12,697 bases of DNA from Flavobacteriaceae bacterium (lineage in GTDB: Bacteria; Bacteroidota; Bacteroidia; Flavobacteriales; Flavobacteriaceae). Below are positions 2,444-9,853 of the stretch, one piece after another (position 1 is the first letter of the stretch; each line of letters starts with the position of its first letter). Location of the stretch: NCBI GenBank assembly GCA_030633225.1, contig DAOVTF010000020.1, forward strand, positions 1 to 12,697. The letters run 5' to 3'. The notes beneath the pieces are model-generated. The model saw only the letters and a program-made list of their open reading frames with translations, did no database searches and was not told where the DNA came from. Made by a program: the position numbers and the translations under genes.

Positions 2444-3184
2444 TTATCCTAAAAACATTTGAGTTAAAAAATAATTTAATACAATTATTACCACACTGGT
2501 CCAAACTACAGCCTTAGTACTTGCTTTACCAACTTCTAATGAACCTCCTTTAACATAAAACCCATAAAAAGATGGAATAGTTGCAATCATAAAAGCAAAA
2601 ACCATAGTTTTTATTAATGAATATTGAATTAAATATGGTTTAAAATCTTCTCTAATTCCCATAATATATTGGTCAGAGGTAAATAAGCCGGTTGCAAATC
2701 CAGATACCCATCCGCCAAGAATTCCCAAGAACATAGCTAATAATACTATAAAAGGATAAAACAATACTGTAGAGATTACTTTAGGTAAAACCAAGTGATT
2801 TAATGCGTTTATCCCCATGACTTCTAAAGCATCAATTTGTTCTGTAACTCTCATAGTACCGATGCTTGATGTAATATATGATCCAACTTTACCAGCTAAT
2901 ATAATTGCCATAAAAGTTGGTGCAAATTCTAATATAATTGCTCGTTTAGTTGCGAAACCAATAAGATATTTAGGTATCCAAGGATTGTCAACATTTAATC
3001 CAGTTTGAATAGCAACAACACCACCAACGAAAAAAGAAATAAAAGCTACAATACCAATCGATTTTAAACCTAACTCTTCAATTTCTTTAAAGAAATTTTC
3101 AAAAAAAATAGACCACTTTTGCGGTTTCTTAAAAACCTGCCCAAGCATTATAAAGTATTTTCCTATATTTTTTAAATATATCAT
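2444..3184 (-). CDS. mlaE: MlaE-family ABC permease (MCE-type phospholipid transport)
   Basis: This integral membrane permease of the MlaE/DUF140 family is the inner-membrane partner of the ATPase encoded next to it. The 246 residues contain several hydrophobic helices (roughly 42-62, 84-104, 136-165, 190-210, 224-244). They also carry the family's conserved cytoplasmic segment: EFAPTFMAIILAGKVG at 86-101, then MRVTEQIDALEVMGIN at 111-126, and the later GGSLEVGKASTKAVVW at 213-228. The length is that of a complete family member. The system is generally linked to outer-membrane lipid asymmetry; the direction of transport cannot be read here. It is the first gene of a two-gene operon and is divergent from the pafA-like gene across a 111-base gap. 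I found only weak promoter matches on this strand. Confidence 0.93.
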   Translation of the reverse strand: MIYLKNIGKYFIMLGQVFKKPQKWSIFFENFFKEIEELGLKSIGIVAFISFFVGGVVAIQTGLNVDNPWIPKYLIGFATKRAIILEFAPTFMAIILAGKVGSYITSSIGTMRVTEQIDALEVMGINALNHLVLPKVISTVLFYPFIVLLAMFLGILGGWVSGFATGLFTSDQYIMGIREDFKPYLIQYSLIKTMVFAFMIATIPSFYGFYVKGGSLEVGKASTKAVVWTSVVIIVLNYFLTQMFLG

Positions 3185-3295: not shown

Positions 3296-4933
3296 ATGAA
3301 AAAAATATTTTTGCTAAGCTTAATTTTGTTAAGTTCAATTGAGTTTAAAGCACAGTCAAATTTAAATATTGATCGCCCAAAGTTAGTCGTTGGAATTGTT
3401 GTTGACCAGATGCGATATGATTATTTAACCAGATTTTATAATAAATATGATGAAGGTGGTTTTAAACGATTAATGAATGATGGTTTTAATTGTGAAAATG
3501 CACATTTTAACTATATCCCAACTTATACTGCAGTTGGGCATACTTCTATTTATACTGGAACTACACCTGATATACATGGAATTATTGGCAATAATTGGTA
3601 TGATAAATTTTCAAAAAAATCAATTTATTGCGTTGATGATTTTACATATAAAGCAGTTGGAACTAAAAAAACAAACGAACAAAAATCACCTTATAGATTA
3701 CTTACAACAACCATTACTGATGAGCTGCGGTTATCGCAAAACATGAATGGTAAAACGATAAGTATTGGTATTAAAGATCGTTCAGCTGTATTACCTGGTG
3801 GCCATACAGCAAATGCTGCTTATTGGTTTATTGGTAAAAATGAGGGTAAATTTATTACTAGTACCTATTACATGGAAAAATTGCCTAAGTGGGTAAATGA
3901 TTTTAATGATTTGGAATTACCAAAAAAATATGTCAAACAAAAATGGGAAACTTTATACCCAATTGAAACATATACAGAAAGCATTGCTGATAATAATAAT
4001 TTTGAAGGAACTTATAATGGAGAAAAGTCACCAACATTTCCACATGATTTGTCAAAACTAAGAAAGAAAAACAATAATTATGACCTTGTTAAAAGCACTC
4101 CGTTTGGAAATAATATTGTTACAGAATTTGCAAAGGCAGCGATAGAAAATGAAAATTTAGGAAAAGGAAATTATACTGATTTTTTAGCTATAAGCTATTC
4201 TAGTCCTGATTATATAGGGCATCAATTTGGTGTAGATTCAAAGGAAATTCAAGATACTTATTTGCGTTTAGATAAAGATATAGAAGAATTATTAAATTTT
4301 TTGGATAAAAATGTTGGTGTAAATAATTATACAATATTTTTGACTGCAGACCATGCTGCAGTTCAAGTTCCATCTTATTTAAATTCTTTAAAAATACCGA
4401 GCGGATATATTGATGTTGATGAATTTAAAAAATTTGTATTGGGAGTTACACAGAAAAATTTTAAATCTGTCAAGTTGATTGAAAATGTGTCAAATTTTCA
4501 AATATTTTTAAATAAAGAAGAGATTTCAAAATTAAAACTTGACCAAAATAAGGTTACTCAGGTTTTAGTCAATGAAATTATTAATTATGAAGGAGTGAAT
4601 AAAGTTGTTACTTCACAAACGTTACAAAACACTAATTTTACTGAGGGGATCTTGTATAATCTTCAAAATGGATATAATCAAAAGTTGTCTGGTGATATAT
4701 TAATAGTACCAAATCCTGCTACAATTATTCACTCAAAAGTTGGATCAACACATGGCTCAGGTTTTAGTTATGACACTCACGTTCCAATTATTTTTTATGG
4801 TAAAGGAATAAAGAAAGGTAAATCAAAAAATTATACTCCAATAATAAATATAGCACCTACATTGGCTAATTTACTGCAAATTGAGTTCCCAAATGGGAAT
4901 TCAGGATCTGTTTTAGAAGAAGTTTTGCGATAG
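3296..4933 (+). CDS. pafA: PafA-type alkaline phosphatase, periplasmic
   Basis: This 545-residue zinc phosphomonoesterase of the alkaline phosphatase superfamily is predicted to release phosphate from organic monoesters outside the cytoplasm. A Sec signal (residues 1 to about 19, ending FKAQ) precedes the mature enzyme. From memory of Elizabethkingia PafA, the key residues are nucleophile T79, metal ligands D38, D305, H309, D352, H353 and H486, and phosphate-contacting N100, K162 and R164. The equivalents here are T78 (in PTYTAVGHTS), D37 (VVDQMR), D305/H309 (SSPDYIGHQ), D352/H353 (TADHAA), H486 (STHGSG), N99 or N100, and K160/R162 (GIKDRS). Several fall at the same number, and the length is almost the same. 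The K/R pair supports monoesterase rather than diesterase activity. No PHO-box equivalent was seen. Its transcript ends facing the repeat array, whose first hairpin could stop it. Confidence 0.9.
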   Translation: MKKIFLLSLILLSSIEFKAQSNLNIDRPKLVVGIVVDQMRYDYLTRFYNKYDEGGFKRLMNDGFNCENAHFNYIPTYTAVGHTSIYTGTTPDIHGIIGNNWYDKFSKKSIYCVDDFTYKAVGTKKTNEQKSPYRLLTTTITDELRLSQNMNGKTISIGIKDRSAVLPGGHTANAAYWFIGKNEGKFITSTYYMEKLPKWVNDFNDLELPKKYVKQKWETLYPIETYTESIADNNNFEGTYNGEKSPTFPHDLSKLRKKNNNYDLVKSTPFGNNIVTEFAKAAIENENLGKGNYTDFLAISYSSPDYIGHQFGVDSKEIQDTYLRLDKDIEELLNFLDKNVGVNNYTIFLTADHAAVQVPSYLNSLKIPSGYIDVDEFKKFVLGVTQKNFKSVKLIENVSNFQIFLNKEEISKLKLDQNKVTQVLVNEIINYEGVNKVVTSQTLQNTNFTEGILYNLQNGYNQKLSGDILIVPNPATIIHSKVGSTHGSGFSYDTHVPIIFYGKGIKKGKSKNYTPIINIAPTLANLLQIEFPNGNSGSVLEEVLR

Positions 4934-4954
4934 AACTTTATACTGTAAAAATCG

Positions 4955-5035
4955 AAAAACCCTTCACTTCCGTGAAGAGTTTCCTTCTTTAACAATAACA
5001 ATTTTCCCTAGTTTCTATTTAAAAAAACTAATGAG
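4955..5035 (-). ncRNA. putative small RNA, copy A (array position nearest pafA)
   Basis: Predicted minus-strand RNA of about 80 nt. The 5' hairpin is TAGTTT/AAACTA, the core 5008-4984 is identical to copies B and D, and the 3' hairpin AAACTCTTCAC-ggaa-GTGAAGGGTTT (4982-4957) is followed by T residues. Its terminator stem has a different sequence from the other copies but the same shape, including one G-U pair that would be a C-A mismatch on the plus strand. The upstream CGTTG (5046-5042) and ACAATAT box (5067-5061) keep the family spacing, but a clear -33 TTG is missing, so its promoter may be weaker. Its hairpin could also end pafA transcription from the other side. The ends are estimates. 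Confidence 0.55.
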
Positions 5036-5142
5036 ATAATACAACGTATGATATTTTTATATATTGTTGATTGTTTTAAATAAAAAAGAAAAATTGATTT
5101 CTCTCCAGTAATTATATTTCTAAATAGAGGTAATATTAAATG

Positions 5143-5225
5143 AAAAAAACTCTCCATTTTCACGGAGAGTTTTTCTTCTTTAACAATAACAATTTTCCCA
5201 AGTTTTTATTTAAAAAACTCATGAG
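5143..5225 (-). ncRNA. putative small RNA, copy B
   Basis: This is the best-formed copy. On the minus strand a TTG at 5260-5258 is followed after 19 bases by TACGTTG at 5238-5232, a good promoter candidate. The predicted RNA begins near 5225. It forms a 5' hairpin GAGTTTTT-taaat-AAAAACTT (5220-5200), shows the conserved core at 5199-5175 and ends in AAAAACTCTCC-gtgaaaat-GGAGAGTTTTT with a T run to about 5143. Length is about 83 nt. No known RNA family was recognised. A short ATG frame inside it is not conserved in the other copies. Confidence 0.65.
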
Positions 5226-5321
5226 ATAATACAACGTATATTAATTTTTTATATTGCCAACTTTACAAAATAAAACTTACATTTTTGATAATCAAATTTA
5301 TGAATTAAGAAAAAATTGAGC

Positions 5322-5405
5322 AAAAAAAAACTCTCCATTTTATGGAGAGTTTTTACTCTTTAATTATAACAATTTTCCCAAGTTTTTGATTGTAAAAACT
5401 CATCA
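5322..5405 (-). ncRNA. putative small RNA, copy C (most diverged core)
   Basis: This copy has the same architecture as copies A, B and D, but the core at 5379-5355 differs at several positions (GTTATAATTA where the others have GTTATTGTTA). The 5' hairpin GAGTTTTT-acaatc-AAAAACTT is kept with a different loop. The terminator stem AAAACTCTCC/GGAGAGTTTT is perfect and is followed by nine T residues on this strand. The GCAATAT box (5437-5431) and CGTTT (5416-5412) keep the exact family spacing, but no TTG precedes the box. It may have diverged in target or be decaying. Confidence 0.55.
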
Positions 5406-5528
5406 AATTATAAACGATTAGTTGTGTTTTATATTGCTTTGAGACAAAATATTATTAAATAATAAGTAATAAATGTTACATATTATAAAAAATAATGCAA
5501 AAAATTAACTAAATATAGATATAAAATC

Positions 5529-5610
5529 AAAAAACTCCCCATTTTCATGGAGAGTTTTCCTTCTTTAACAATAACAATTTTCCCTAGTTTTAATTAAAAA
5601 ACTAATTGAG
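5529..5610 (-). ncRNA. putative small RNA, copy D (nearest the helicase gene)
   Basis: Predicted minus-strand RNA of about 82 nt. TTG at 5644-5642 precedes the AATAT box, and CGTTG lies at the family spacing, although the bases before it read CG rather than TA. The 5' hairpin is TAGTTTT-ttaatt-AAAACTA. The core at 5584-5560 is identical to copies A and B. The terminator AAAACTCTCC-atgaaaat-GGGGAGTTTT contains one G-U pair on this strand, which on the other strand would be a C-A mismatch. It is the first copy met by transcription coming out of the helicase gene, from which it is separated by a strong inverted repeat at 5818-5853. Confidence 0.6.
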
Positions 5611-5817
5611 ATTATACAACGCGAATAAATTTTTTATATTGCAATTTTTAAATATAAAAAGTAGATTTTTGGCATAAAATATTTACAACGGAAAGTTAAC
5701 TCTAGCAAACTATCAATTACATACAAGGTAATTATTCAATAATTGAAATTTGGAAATTGACAGATCTATAAAAAATGTGATTGGTTTAAAGTATTCAATT
5801 AACTATTATTATTAAGT

Positions 5818-5853
5818 AATAAGAGTAAAAAATATTTATTTTTTACTCTTATT
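5818..5853 (-). terminator. perfect 15-bp inverted repeat at the end of the helicase gene
   Basis: Bases 5818-5832 and 5839-5853 are perfect inverted copies around a 6-base loop. The core is AAGAGTAAAAAA/TTTTTTACTCTT. The helicase stop codon (5838-5836) lies in the loop. On the plus strand the stem is followed by a T run (5852-5857), so the hairpin is probably bidirectional, ending the helicase transcript and shielding the helicase gene from plus-strand read-through. It separates the helicase gene from the small-RNA array. Confidence 0.6.
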
Positions 5854-7176
5854 TTTTGGCGCTCTTGTTTTAGGTTTTTTATATTTCTTTTTAATTTCAC
5901 GTTTATAAGAACCACCTAAATTTACTTTTTTGTTTTTATCGCTTTTTTCATGAAAAGCTGCTCCAAGTGTAGAAGTATTTATTTTTTTATGGGTTATTTC
6001 TTTTTCTATTGTTTTATCCTTTTCTTCAGGCATAAGAATATTAGATATTTCAATATCTTTAGGAATAGAGGAAATAGGTATTTCAAACTGCATTAGAATT
6101 TCAATTTCCAATAACATTTCTTCTTCTTTTGGTGTAAAGAATATAATTGCATTTCCTTTTTTTCTGGCTCTACCTGTTCTTCCTATTCTATGAATATACT
6201 GTTCTGCAAATTTTGGGGTATCAAAATTAATTACATGAGAAACTTCTTTAATATCCATTCCACGAGAAACAATATCAGTTGCAATTAATATTCTATCTGA
6301 CCCATTTTGAAACTCTTCTATAGAATTGAATCTAAAGTTTTGGGATTTATTAGAATGAATTACATTGATCTCATCAATAAATGTTTCTTTTAAATTATCA
6401 AAAAGCCTGTCAGCAATTTTTTTGTTTTTAACAAAAACTAATACTTTTTCATACTCACTTTTGCTTAACAAAGAATTTAACAAATTGACTTTTGTATTAT
6501 AATTGGGTACCGAAAAACCTTTTTGATCAATTTTCTCTAAAGGTGTACCAACTGGTACAATTTCAATTTTTTTAGGGCTTTTAAAAAATCCTTTAATTAT
6601 ATTTTCAACATCTTCAGGAAGAGTGGCAGAGAATAATATGTTTTGTCTCTTTTTAGGTAGAATGTCTAAAATATTCATCAATTGGGGTCGAAATCCAATA
6701 AATAACATTTCATCAACTTCATCAATTACTAATTTTTGAATAGACGATAAACGTAAAACACCTGAAACGGCCAAATCAAATAACCTGCCTGGTGTTGCAA
6801 CTAAAATATCTAAGCCTTCACTAACCATTTGCCTTTGGTTATTTATATTTACGCCACCAAATACACCATCTATTCTAACAGTTTGATAAGTTGTTAAACT
6901 TTTTGCAGCCTCAACAACTTGGACTACCAATTCACGAGTAGGAACAAGGATTAGAATTCTAGGCTGAATTTGATCAGAAAATTGTAACTGTTTTAATAAA
7001 GGTAATAAATAGGCAAATGTTTTCCCGGTACCAGTTTGAGCTAATCCAACGACATCATTACCTGATAAAATTGCAGGTAAGGCTTTTAATTGAATAGGAG
7101 TAGGGTTTTCTATTCCCAAATCATTTAAAGCCTTAAGTTGTGGTTTATTAATTTTTAAAGTTTCAAATGTTTTCAT
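5836..7176 (-). CDS. DEAD-box ATP-dependent RNA helicase (RhlE-like)
   Basis: This is a cytoplasmic ATP-dependent RNA helicase of the DEAD-box group, which remodels RNA duplexes in ribosome assembly, mRNA decay or cold adaptation. The 446 residues carry all core motifs: Q-motif PTPIQ (26-30), motif I AQTGTGKT (46-53), Ia PTREL (79-83), Ib TPGR (128-131), II DEVD (152-155), III SAT (183-185), V ATDIVSRGMDI (299-309) and VI HRIGRTGR (329-336). Motif II reads DEVD instead of DEAD, a conservative change also seen elsewhere in the superfamily. The tail after about residue 400 is rich in Lys and Arg, as in RhlE-type proteins that use a basic extension to hold RNA. The ATG at 7176 follows an AT-rich leader. 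It lies on the same strand as, and just before, the small-RNA array. RhlE, CsdA and SrmB-like roles cannot be separated from sequence. Confidence 0.93.
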   Translation of the reverse strand: MKTFETLKINKPQLKALNDLGIENPTPIQLKALPAILSGNDVVGLAQTGTGKTFAYLLPLLKQLQFSDQIQPRILILVPTRELVVQVVEAAKSLTTYQTVRIDGVFGGVNINNQRQMVSEGLDILVATPGRLFDLAVSGVLRLSSIQKLVIDEVDEMLFIGFRPQLMNILDILPKKRQNILFSATLPEDVENIIKGFFKSPKKIEIVPVGTPLEKIDQKGFSVPNYNTKVNLLNSLLSKSEYEKVLVFVKNKKIADRLFDNLKETFIDEINVIHSNKSQNFRFNSIEEFQNGSDRILIATDIVSRGMDIKEVSHVINFDTPKFAEQYIHRIGRTGRARKKGNAIIFFTPKEEEMLLEIEILMQFEIPISSIPKDIEISNILMPEEKDKTIEKEITHKKINTSTLGAAFHEKSDKNKKVNLGGSYKREIKKKYKKPKTRAPKNKSKK

Positions 7177-9271: not shown

Positions 9272-9481
9272 ATGCCAATTATAACCAATTTAGATGTTCA
9301 GTTAGCAAAGAATAAAATGACTCTTACTGAGCTTTCAGAAAGGGTAAATATTACAATGGCTAATCTTTCAATCTTGAAAAGTGGGAAAGCCAGAGCAATT
9401 CGTTTTTCTACTTTAGAACTTATTTGTAAGGAATTGAATTGTACTCCTGGAGATATTTTAGAATTTGTTCCTGATAAATAA
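9272..9481 (+). CDS. small YozG-like XRE/Cro HTH regulator, paralogue 1
   Basis: This 69-residue DNA-binding protein is almost entirely one Cro/C1-type helix-turn-helix domain. The scanning and recognition helices are TLTELSERVNIT (17-28) and ANLSILKSGKARAI (30-43), followed by the typical FSTLELICKELNCTPGDILE. Proteins this short usually bind as dimers and repress their own or neighbouring promoters. It lies 6 bases after the DUF2975 gene, an arrangement like the yoaS/yozG pair, so it is probably part of that operon. A second, closely related gene lies 150 bases downstream. An overlapping minus-strand frame (9489-9298) is only a shadow. The 19-bp inverted repeat after its stop may be both its terminator and an operator. 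Confidence 0.88.
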   Translation: MPIITNLDVQLAKNKMTLTELSERVNITMANLSILKSGKARAIRFSTLELICKELNCTPGDILEFVPDK

Positions 9482-9631: not shown

Positions 9632-9853
9632 ATGCCAATAATTACAAATTTAGATGTTCAACTCGCTAAAAATAAAATGACTCTAACTGAGCTATCAGAA
9701 AGAGTAGGTATTACAATAGCTAATCTTTCTATTTTAAAAAGTGGTAAAGCCAAGGCAATAAGATTTTCTACGTTAGAACTAATTTGCAACGAGTTGAATT
9801 GTCAGCCTTCAGATCTTTTTGAATATAGATCAGATCATCAAAAGGCGGTGTAA
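9632..9853 (+). CDS. small YozG-like XRE/Cro HTH regulator, paralogue 2
   Basis: This 73-residue Cro/C1-type HTH protein has its first 25 residues identical to paralogue 1 and differs at only a handful of positions through residue 60 (for example N26G, M29I, R41K, K54N). The DNA differs mostly at third codon positions, so the duplication is old and both copies have been kept under protein-level selection. The recognition-helix region ANLSILKSGKA is identical, so both proteins may bind the same sites. The C-termini diverge completely (EFVPDK against EYRSDHQKAV). It has its own promoter candidate, overlapped by the inverted repeat. The next gene is the metallopeptidase, whose promoter carries similar motifs. 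Confidence 0.88.
   Translation: MPIITNLDVQLAKNKMTLTELSERVGITIANLSILKSGKAKAIRFSTLELICNELNCQPSDLFEYRSDHQKAV

Follow-up and report, generated by a model that had tools for sequence, protein, structure and literature searches.

A conserved tandem array of predicted small RNA genes in the genus Lutimonas (Flavobacteriaceae)

In a Lutimonas genome (Flavobacteriaceae), four similar units, all on the minus strand, occupy the intergenic region flanked by a DEAD-box helicase gene and by a PafA-type alkaline phosphatase gene that is convergent with the array. The units are real and conserved, and most likely a new family of tandem small RNAs, ordinary as a kind. Lutimonas is a marine relative of Flavobacterium. 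The array is located in the window, the whole 12,697 bp stretch of DNA that was analysed, whose genome assembly comprises 305 contigs and is 67% complete. In the interpretation that we favour, and hold with moderate confidence, the units form a lineage-specific, tandemly duplicated small RNA family that would act in trans via an invariant core, with several copies providing dosage.

Organization of the array

Each unit is composed of a promoter-like block, CAATA-N15-CGTT, followed by a predicted transcript of about 90 nt that comprises a 5' hairpin, an unpaired core and a terminator hairpin with a T-tract (Table 1). The orientation is the same throughout, with start-to-start distances of 190, 180 and 205 bp, and when unit B was compared by BLAST with its own genome, units D, A and C were recovered with E values of 1e-37, 1e-28 and 3e-26, respectively. 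This confirms the layout proposed in an earlier note made from the sequence, which had described four minus-strand units at 180-205 bp, each with a promoter-like block, a 5' hairpin, a core and a terminator. The spacers, which the same note had called unrelated, are so by local alignment: the scores of the three inter-unit spacers were equalled by 83, 154 and 86 of 200 shuffles.

Table 1. Coordinates of the array units and flanking genes in the window (transcript positions are approximate).
Feature	Position	Strand	Evidence
Unit D, predicted small RNA, ~90 nt, 5' end inferred	5526..5615	-	covariance model R1, 100 bits (copy itself in model); fold
Unit D promoter-like block CAATA-N15-CGTT	5618..5641	-	CAATA and CGTT in 45/45 copies
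Unit D invariant core	5562..5584	-	copy alignment
Unit D intrinsic terminator	5529..5560	-	terminator scan
Unit C, predicted small RNA, diverged copy	5321..5411	-	model R1, 82.7 bits
Unit C promoter-like block	5413..5436	-	
Unit C core, sole deviating core among 45	5357..5379	-	copy alignment
Unit C intrinsic terminator	5326..5354	-	terminator scan
Unit B, predicted small RNA	5141..5230	-	model R1, 104 bits
Unit B promoter-like block	5233..5256	-	
Unit B invariant core	5177..5199	-	copy alignment
Unit B intrinsic terminator	5143..5176	-	terminator scan
Unit A, predicted small RNA	4951..5040	-	model R1, 93.9 bits
Unit A promoter-like block	5043..5066	-	
Unit A invariant core	4986..5008	-	copy alignment
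Unit A intrinsic terminator, end 21 bp from stop codon of convergent gene	4955..4984	-	terminator scan
DEAD-box helicase gene, upstream flank of array, same strand	5836..7176	-	Pfam DEAD and Helicase_C; synteny
Alkaline phosphatase PafA gene, convergent flank	3296..4933	+	NF042991, 813 bits vs cut-off 650
MlaE-type permease gene, conserved downstream neighbour	2444..3184	-	PF02405; synteny

Elsewhere in the window, a DUF2975 gene is followed on the plus strand by a pair of small helix-turn-helix genes (9272-9481 and 9632-9853) that closely resemble each other. The second copy is 83% identical (tblastn), and the pair is also found in locus L061 of another member of the genus.

Structure of the units and conservation of the core

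A scan of positions 4900-5750 gave seven terminator-like sites (four minus-strand, three plus-strand), where shuffles gave 0.1, and in folding all four units surpass their shuffles (z -3.9 to -5.0). Because the plus strand also folds well in the two copies tried (z -3.3 and -4.7), the strand was called from the T-tracts, the promoter-like block and the anatomy of the units, and not from folding energy.

The unpaired core, GGGAAAAUUGUUAUUGUUAAAGA, is 23 nt long and identical in 44 of the 45 aligned copies, a set that was collected by similarity and may miss copies with an altered core. Unit C of the window is the exception, in line with the earlier observation that units A, B and D share an identical 25-nt core. 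In unit C two adjacent positions of the core changed from TG to AA, another difference is found near the core end, and one base fewer follows CGTT; this unit may be a decaying or a newly specialised copy. Over all copies, the mean pairwise identity is 0.98 for the core and 0.73-0.78 for the hairpins; the promoter spacer of 15 nt averages 0.51 and the sequence upstream of the block 0.42.

Covariation was computed for the 43 distinct copies, in which standard pairs fill 99.1% of the pair cells and seven of the 20 pairs display changes on both sides. None of 500 shuffles scored as high and the real structure beat every slid version, a control whose weak points are that related rows can beat shuffles without any structure and that the structure was derived from the same alignment. 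Six of the seven covarying pairs belong to the terminator stem, where upkeep of the terminator alone could explain them, and one belongs to the 5' hairpin. The nearest relative of a unit was found in the same locus for 18 of 44 units, which gives a mixed picture of old paralogy and of recent duplication or conversion of units.

Units B and C each have a start codon that opens a frame (20 and 16-17 codons, respectively) extending across the core, as would be expected if the units were genes for small proteins. Such frames are present in only two of the 45 units, however, and the would-be third codon positions of the core are invariant outside unit C, and we regard a coding role as very improbable.

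The promoter-like block

Both CAATA and CGTT are present in all 45 copies, always 15 nt apart, the spacer being constant in length with a mean majority identity of 0.65. The flavobacterial housekeeping promoter TTG-N17..23-TAnnTTTG was found in 0/45 copies, as was TAnnTTTG alone, while an SM5-like box (TAnnTTGY) occurs in eight of the 45, three of them in the window. The spacing of CAATA-N15-CGTT presumably agrees with that of the -35 and -10 elements of ECF-type promoters, and this geometry suggests that the unit promoter may be under the control of an ECF sigma factor.

Pattern searches, both strict and looser, together with the inspected contexts, identified no sigma factor or shared regulon for this promoter. 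Outside the arrays the strict pattern matched one sequence that recurs in 12 genomes and that lies, in one context inspected, inside a reading frame which we take to be PorP/SprF-like; there were also four single matches. The looser pattern gave 78 matches, 35 of them in arrays, against 17 for the control. Fifteen of the 43 non-array loose matches were inspected: one is the coding stretch, six are antisense within one conserved gene, two represent a single noncoding site that precedes a gene in two genomes, and four single matches are located 119-191 nt before an open frame. The remaining two, in loci L205 and L206, are antisense in one gene and lie 235-239 nt before a divergent gene, presumably NusG-like, of which they may be the promoter; similar matches are found in seven genomes.

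Distribution and synteny

Among 84,980 species genomes searched, 21 stretches contain an exact 20-mer of the core. The records bearing it are MAGs assigned to Flavobacteriaceae, Flavobacteriales, Flavobacteriia or (three) Bacteroidia, plus Lutimonas saemankumensis and L. halocynthiae. The array is present in 18 of the 22 genus genomes, at a single locus in each, with two to five copies, or one at a contig end. Of the four genomes with no array match, an MlaE gene was undetected at E 1e-40 in three, and in the remaining one (G152) the adjacent phosphatase gene is interrupted by an N-gap; because the locus is missing or gapped in these assemblies, the four misses fail to establish an absence in the genus.

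Wherever the contig extends far enough, the array keeps its position and strand with respect to the helicase gene and the MlaE-ABC genes, the exceptions being G151 and both genomes of a second genus, where no helicase gene adjoins the array. In this second genus, the family is represented by one copy adjoining a stretch of Ns (G146) and by two copies (G349), and the array sits between DUF481 and MlaE. Both copies of G349 (locus L170) share an extra block, TTTACCGTGATTTT, upstream of CAATA, which is perhaps a regulator site or the mark of a recent duplication. As for the PafA-type phosphatase gene, its presence is variable: it was undetected between the array and MlaE in L048, L051, L054 and L062, with the array retained.

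A covariance-model search of relatives, as the earlier note had proposed, covered 397 Flavobacteriaceae genomes with stricter filters that may miss weak relatives and gave matches in 36 of them: five members scored 79.8-104.2 bits and the other 31 at most 46 bits. The 24 non-member matches inspected in full are all terminator-like and have no core. Nine distant BLAST matches outside Lutimonas and G146 did not, by eye, combine a promoter block, a core and a terminator, and were taken as chance matches or terminators.

Two further explanations bear on this distribution. Array and MlaE-ABC genes are kept together on the same strand, as direct neighbours where the phosphatase gene was undetected, which would suit a multicopy leader or attenuator that acts in cis on the MlaE-ABC operon downstream of it. 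Yet every unit possesses its own promoter-like block and terminator, and the convergent phosphatase gene was detected beside the array in 14 of the 21 loci examined (including L196), which makes a leader function distinctly improbable. A repeated or mobile DNA element of the REP type without RNA function, inserted at random sites, is the outcome that the earlier note had set against its own proposal. Several hairpin-bearing copies per genome are compatible with such an element; the single locus per genome, with synteny across the genus, is not what it predicts, the core is more constant than its surroundings, and no unit was seen in the 212 bases inspected for the sole exact 20-mer match in viral contigs. 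We consider a REP-type origin exceedingly improbable. The synteny, the covarying stems and the invariant core support a tandem family of small RNA genes, as originally proposed.

Comparison with known RNA families

At the gathering score, Rfam gave no match in the window and none in four related loci. A permissive scan returned 39 matches, all below gathering, and Flavo-1, the Rfam RNA named after flavobacteria that the earlier note had suggested for comparison, was not among them. Within the literature searched, no paper joined Lutimonas with sRNA, small RNAs were the subject of none of ten listed titles out of 57 papers naming Lutimonas, and no earlier description of the family was found.

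The closest comparison within the Bacteroidota is with FopS of Bacteroides thetaiotaomicron, a family with 14 members (nine intergenic, four antisense and one from a 3' UTR), canonical sigma-ABfr promoters, binding by the RRM_1 protein RbpB and a pairing region, R1', at the 5' end (PMC11697453). Both families consist of many near-identical short small RNAs of Bacteroidota with a common conserved stretch; unlike FopS, the Lutimonas units form one tandem array with the sigma-ABfr promoter in 0/45 copies and an RRM_1 protein in 0/22 genomes, and they have a hairpin near the 5' end and an internal invariant core. The RRM_1 search of the 22 genus genomes had a positive control that was detected in a Bacteroides genome, and Hfq, also 0/22, had a positive control detected in 5 of 14 named genomes; in six of the 22, completeness is 90% or more and contamination 5% or less. 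Because Hfq and RRM_1 were not found in these genomes, the family is not a FopS/RbpB-type system.

Tandem sibling small RNA pairs of Proteobacteria are described for OmrA/OmrB, PrrF1/PrrF2 of P. aeruginosa and AbcR1/AbcR2 of A. tumefaciens and S. meliloti (PMC4211561). The Lutimonas units resemble these in that related small RNA genes adjoin each other, and differ by having up to five copies, no Rfam match and no Hfq found. Qrr, OmrA/B and PrrF are Hfq-dependent siblings, a dependence for which the 0/22 count in Lutimonas offers no counterpart. Among flavobacterial small RNAs, Rfp11 and Rfp18 of Flavobacterium psychrophilum likewise have a strong predicted structure (PMC9723704). The Lutimonas family was undetected in the other Flavobacteriaceae genera sampled, save the second genus.

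Search for targets of the core

No conserved genus-wide target was found in complementarity and start-region searches. The exact 13-mer complement of the core has 21 non-array matches in the 22 genomes, and no recurring orthologue was seen among 20 inspected contexts (G168 contig 136 was left out). Stretches of 19 nt complementary to the core with at most three mismatches numbered 56 in five genomes, eight of them in arrays, against 67 for a control pattern, hence no excess (16 contexts were inspected). For 309 genes sampled by mechanical calling in G025, the core paired with the start regions no better than 60 shuffled cores did: 18 regions reached -10 or better versus 12.6 (sd 4.7) for the shuffled cores, two versus 2.4 reached -12, and none versus 0.4 reached -14. 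Relative to coding windows, the start regions performed slightly worse than nearly all shuffles. In L124 and L254, from two genomes, a core-complementary stretch lies 25 and 36 nt before the start of two genes that we take to be sulfatase-like, which may be due to chance.

A weak candidate is the region upstream of porV (PorV identified by NF033710). A duplex of -14 kcal/mol or better was predicted in 10 of 17 upstream regions from 16 genomes and the site is lacking in seven, five of these from array-bearing genomes; these are raw counts, two of 19 loci were dropped as no start was called, and four genus genomes gave no porV match. In one part of the genus (L244, L245, L255 and other porV loci) the site matches the core complement over 13-14 nt, and it includes the last codons and stop of the preceding gene, presumably porU. 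An envelope-stress-type circuit working without Hfq or RbpB, in which an ECF sigma factor would fire the two to five tandem copies and the core would cover this porV-upstream region, tuning type IX secretion, is very unlikely.

The main rival to pairing with mRNAs is a protein-binding decoy, in which the RNAs would titrate an RNA-binding protein via the unpaired UUGUUAUUGUUA, with its two UUGUUA repeats, and would pair with no mRNA. The entire core is invariant though the target searches found none, and several copies would suit titration; against this, neither RRM_1, the domain of the Bacteroides partner RbpB, nor Hfq was detected in any of the 22 genus genomes, and these searches yielded no candidate protein. 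We regard a decoy as possible but doubtful.

Proposed mode of action and significance

Several near-identical copies, every one equipped with a separate promoter-like block and terminator, and an invariant unpaired core are features that dosage-type small RNAs acting in trans would be expected to show. In the trans-acting scheme that we infer, each unit would be transcribed separately from the ECF-geometry promoter, giving an RNA of about 90 nt in which the core is exposed between the 5' hairpin and the terminator hairpin. The copies would act jointly, allowing dosage and a quick response, and the core would pair with one or few mRNAs. As Hfq and RRM_1 were not found in the 22 genus genomes, such pairing would be chaperone-free or assisted by another protein.

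Small RNA regulation in Bacteroidota beyond the gut Bacteroides is little charted. The Lutimonas array, a predicted small RNA that is compact, strongly conserved and multicopy, with a non-housekeeping promoter, would offer a tractable case for small RNA function without the known chaperones, in a genus that includes the cultured species L. saemankumensis and L. halocynthiae.
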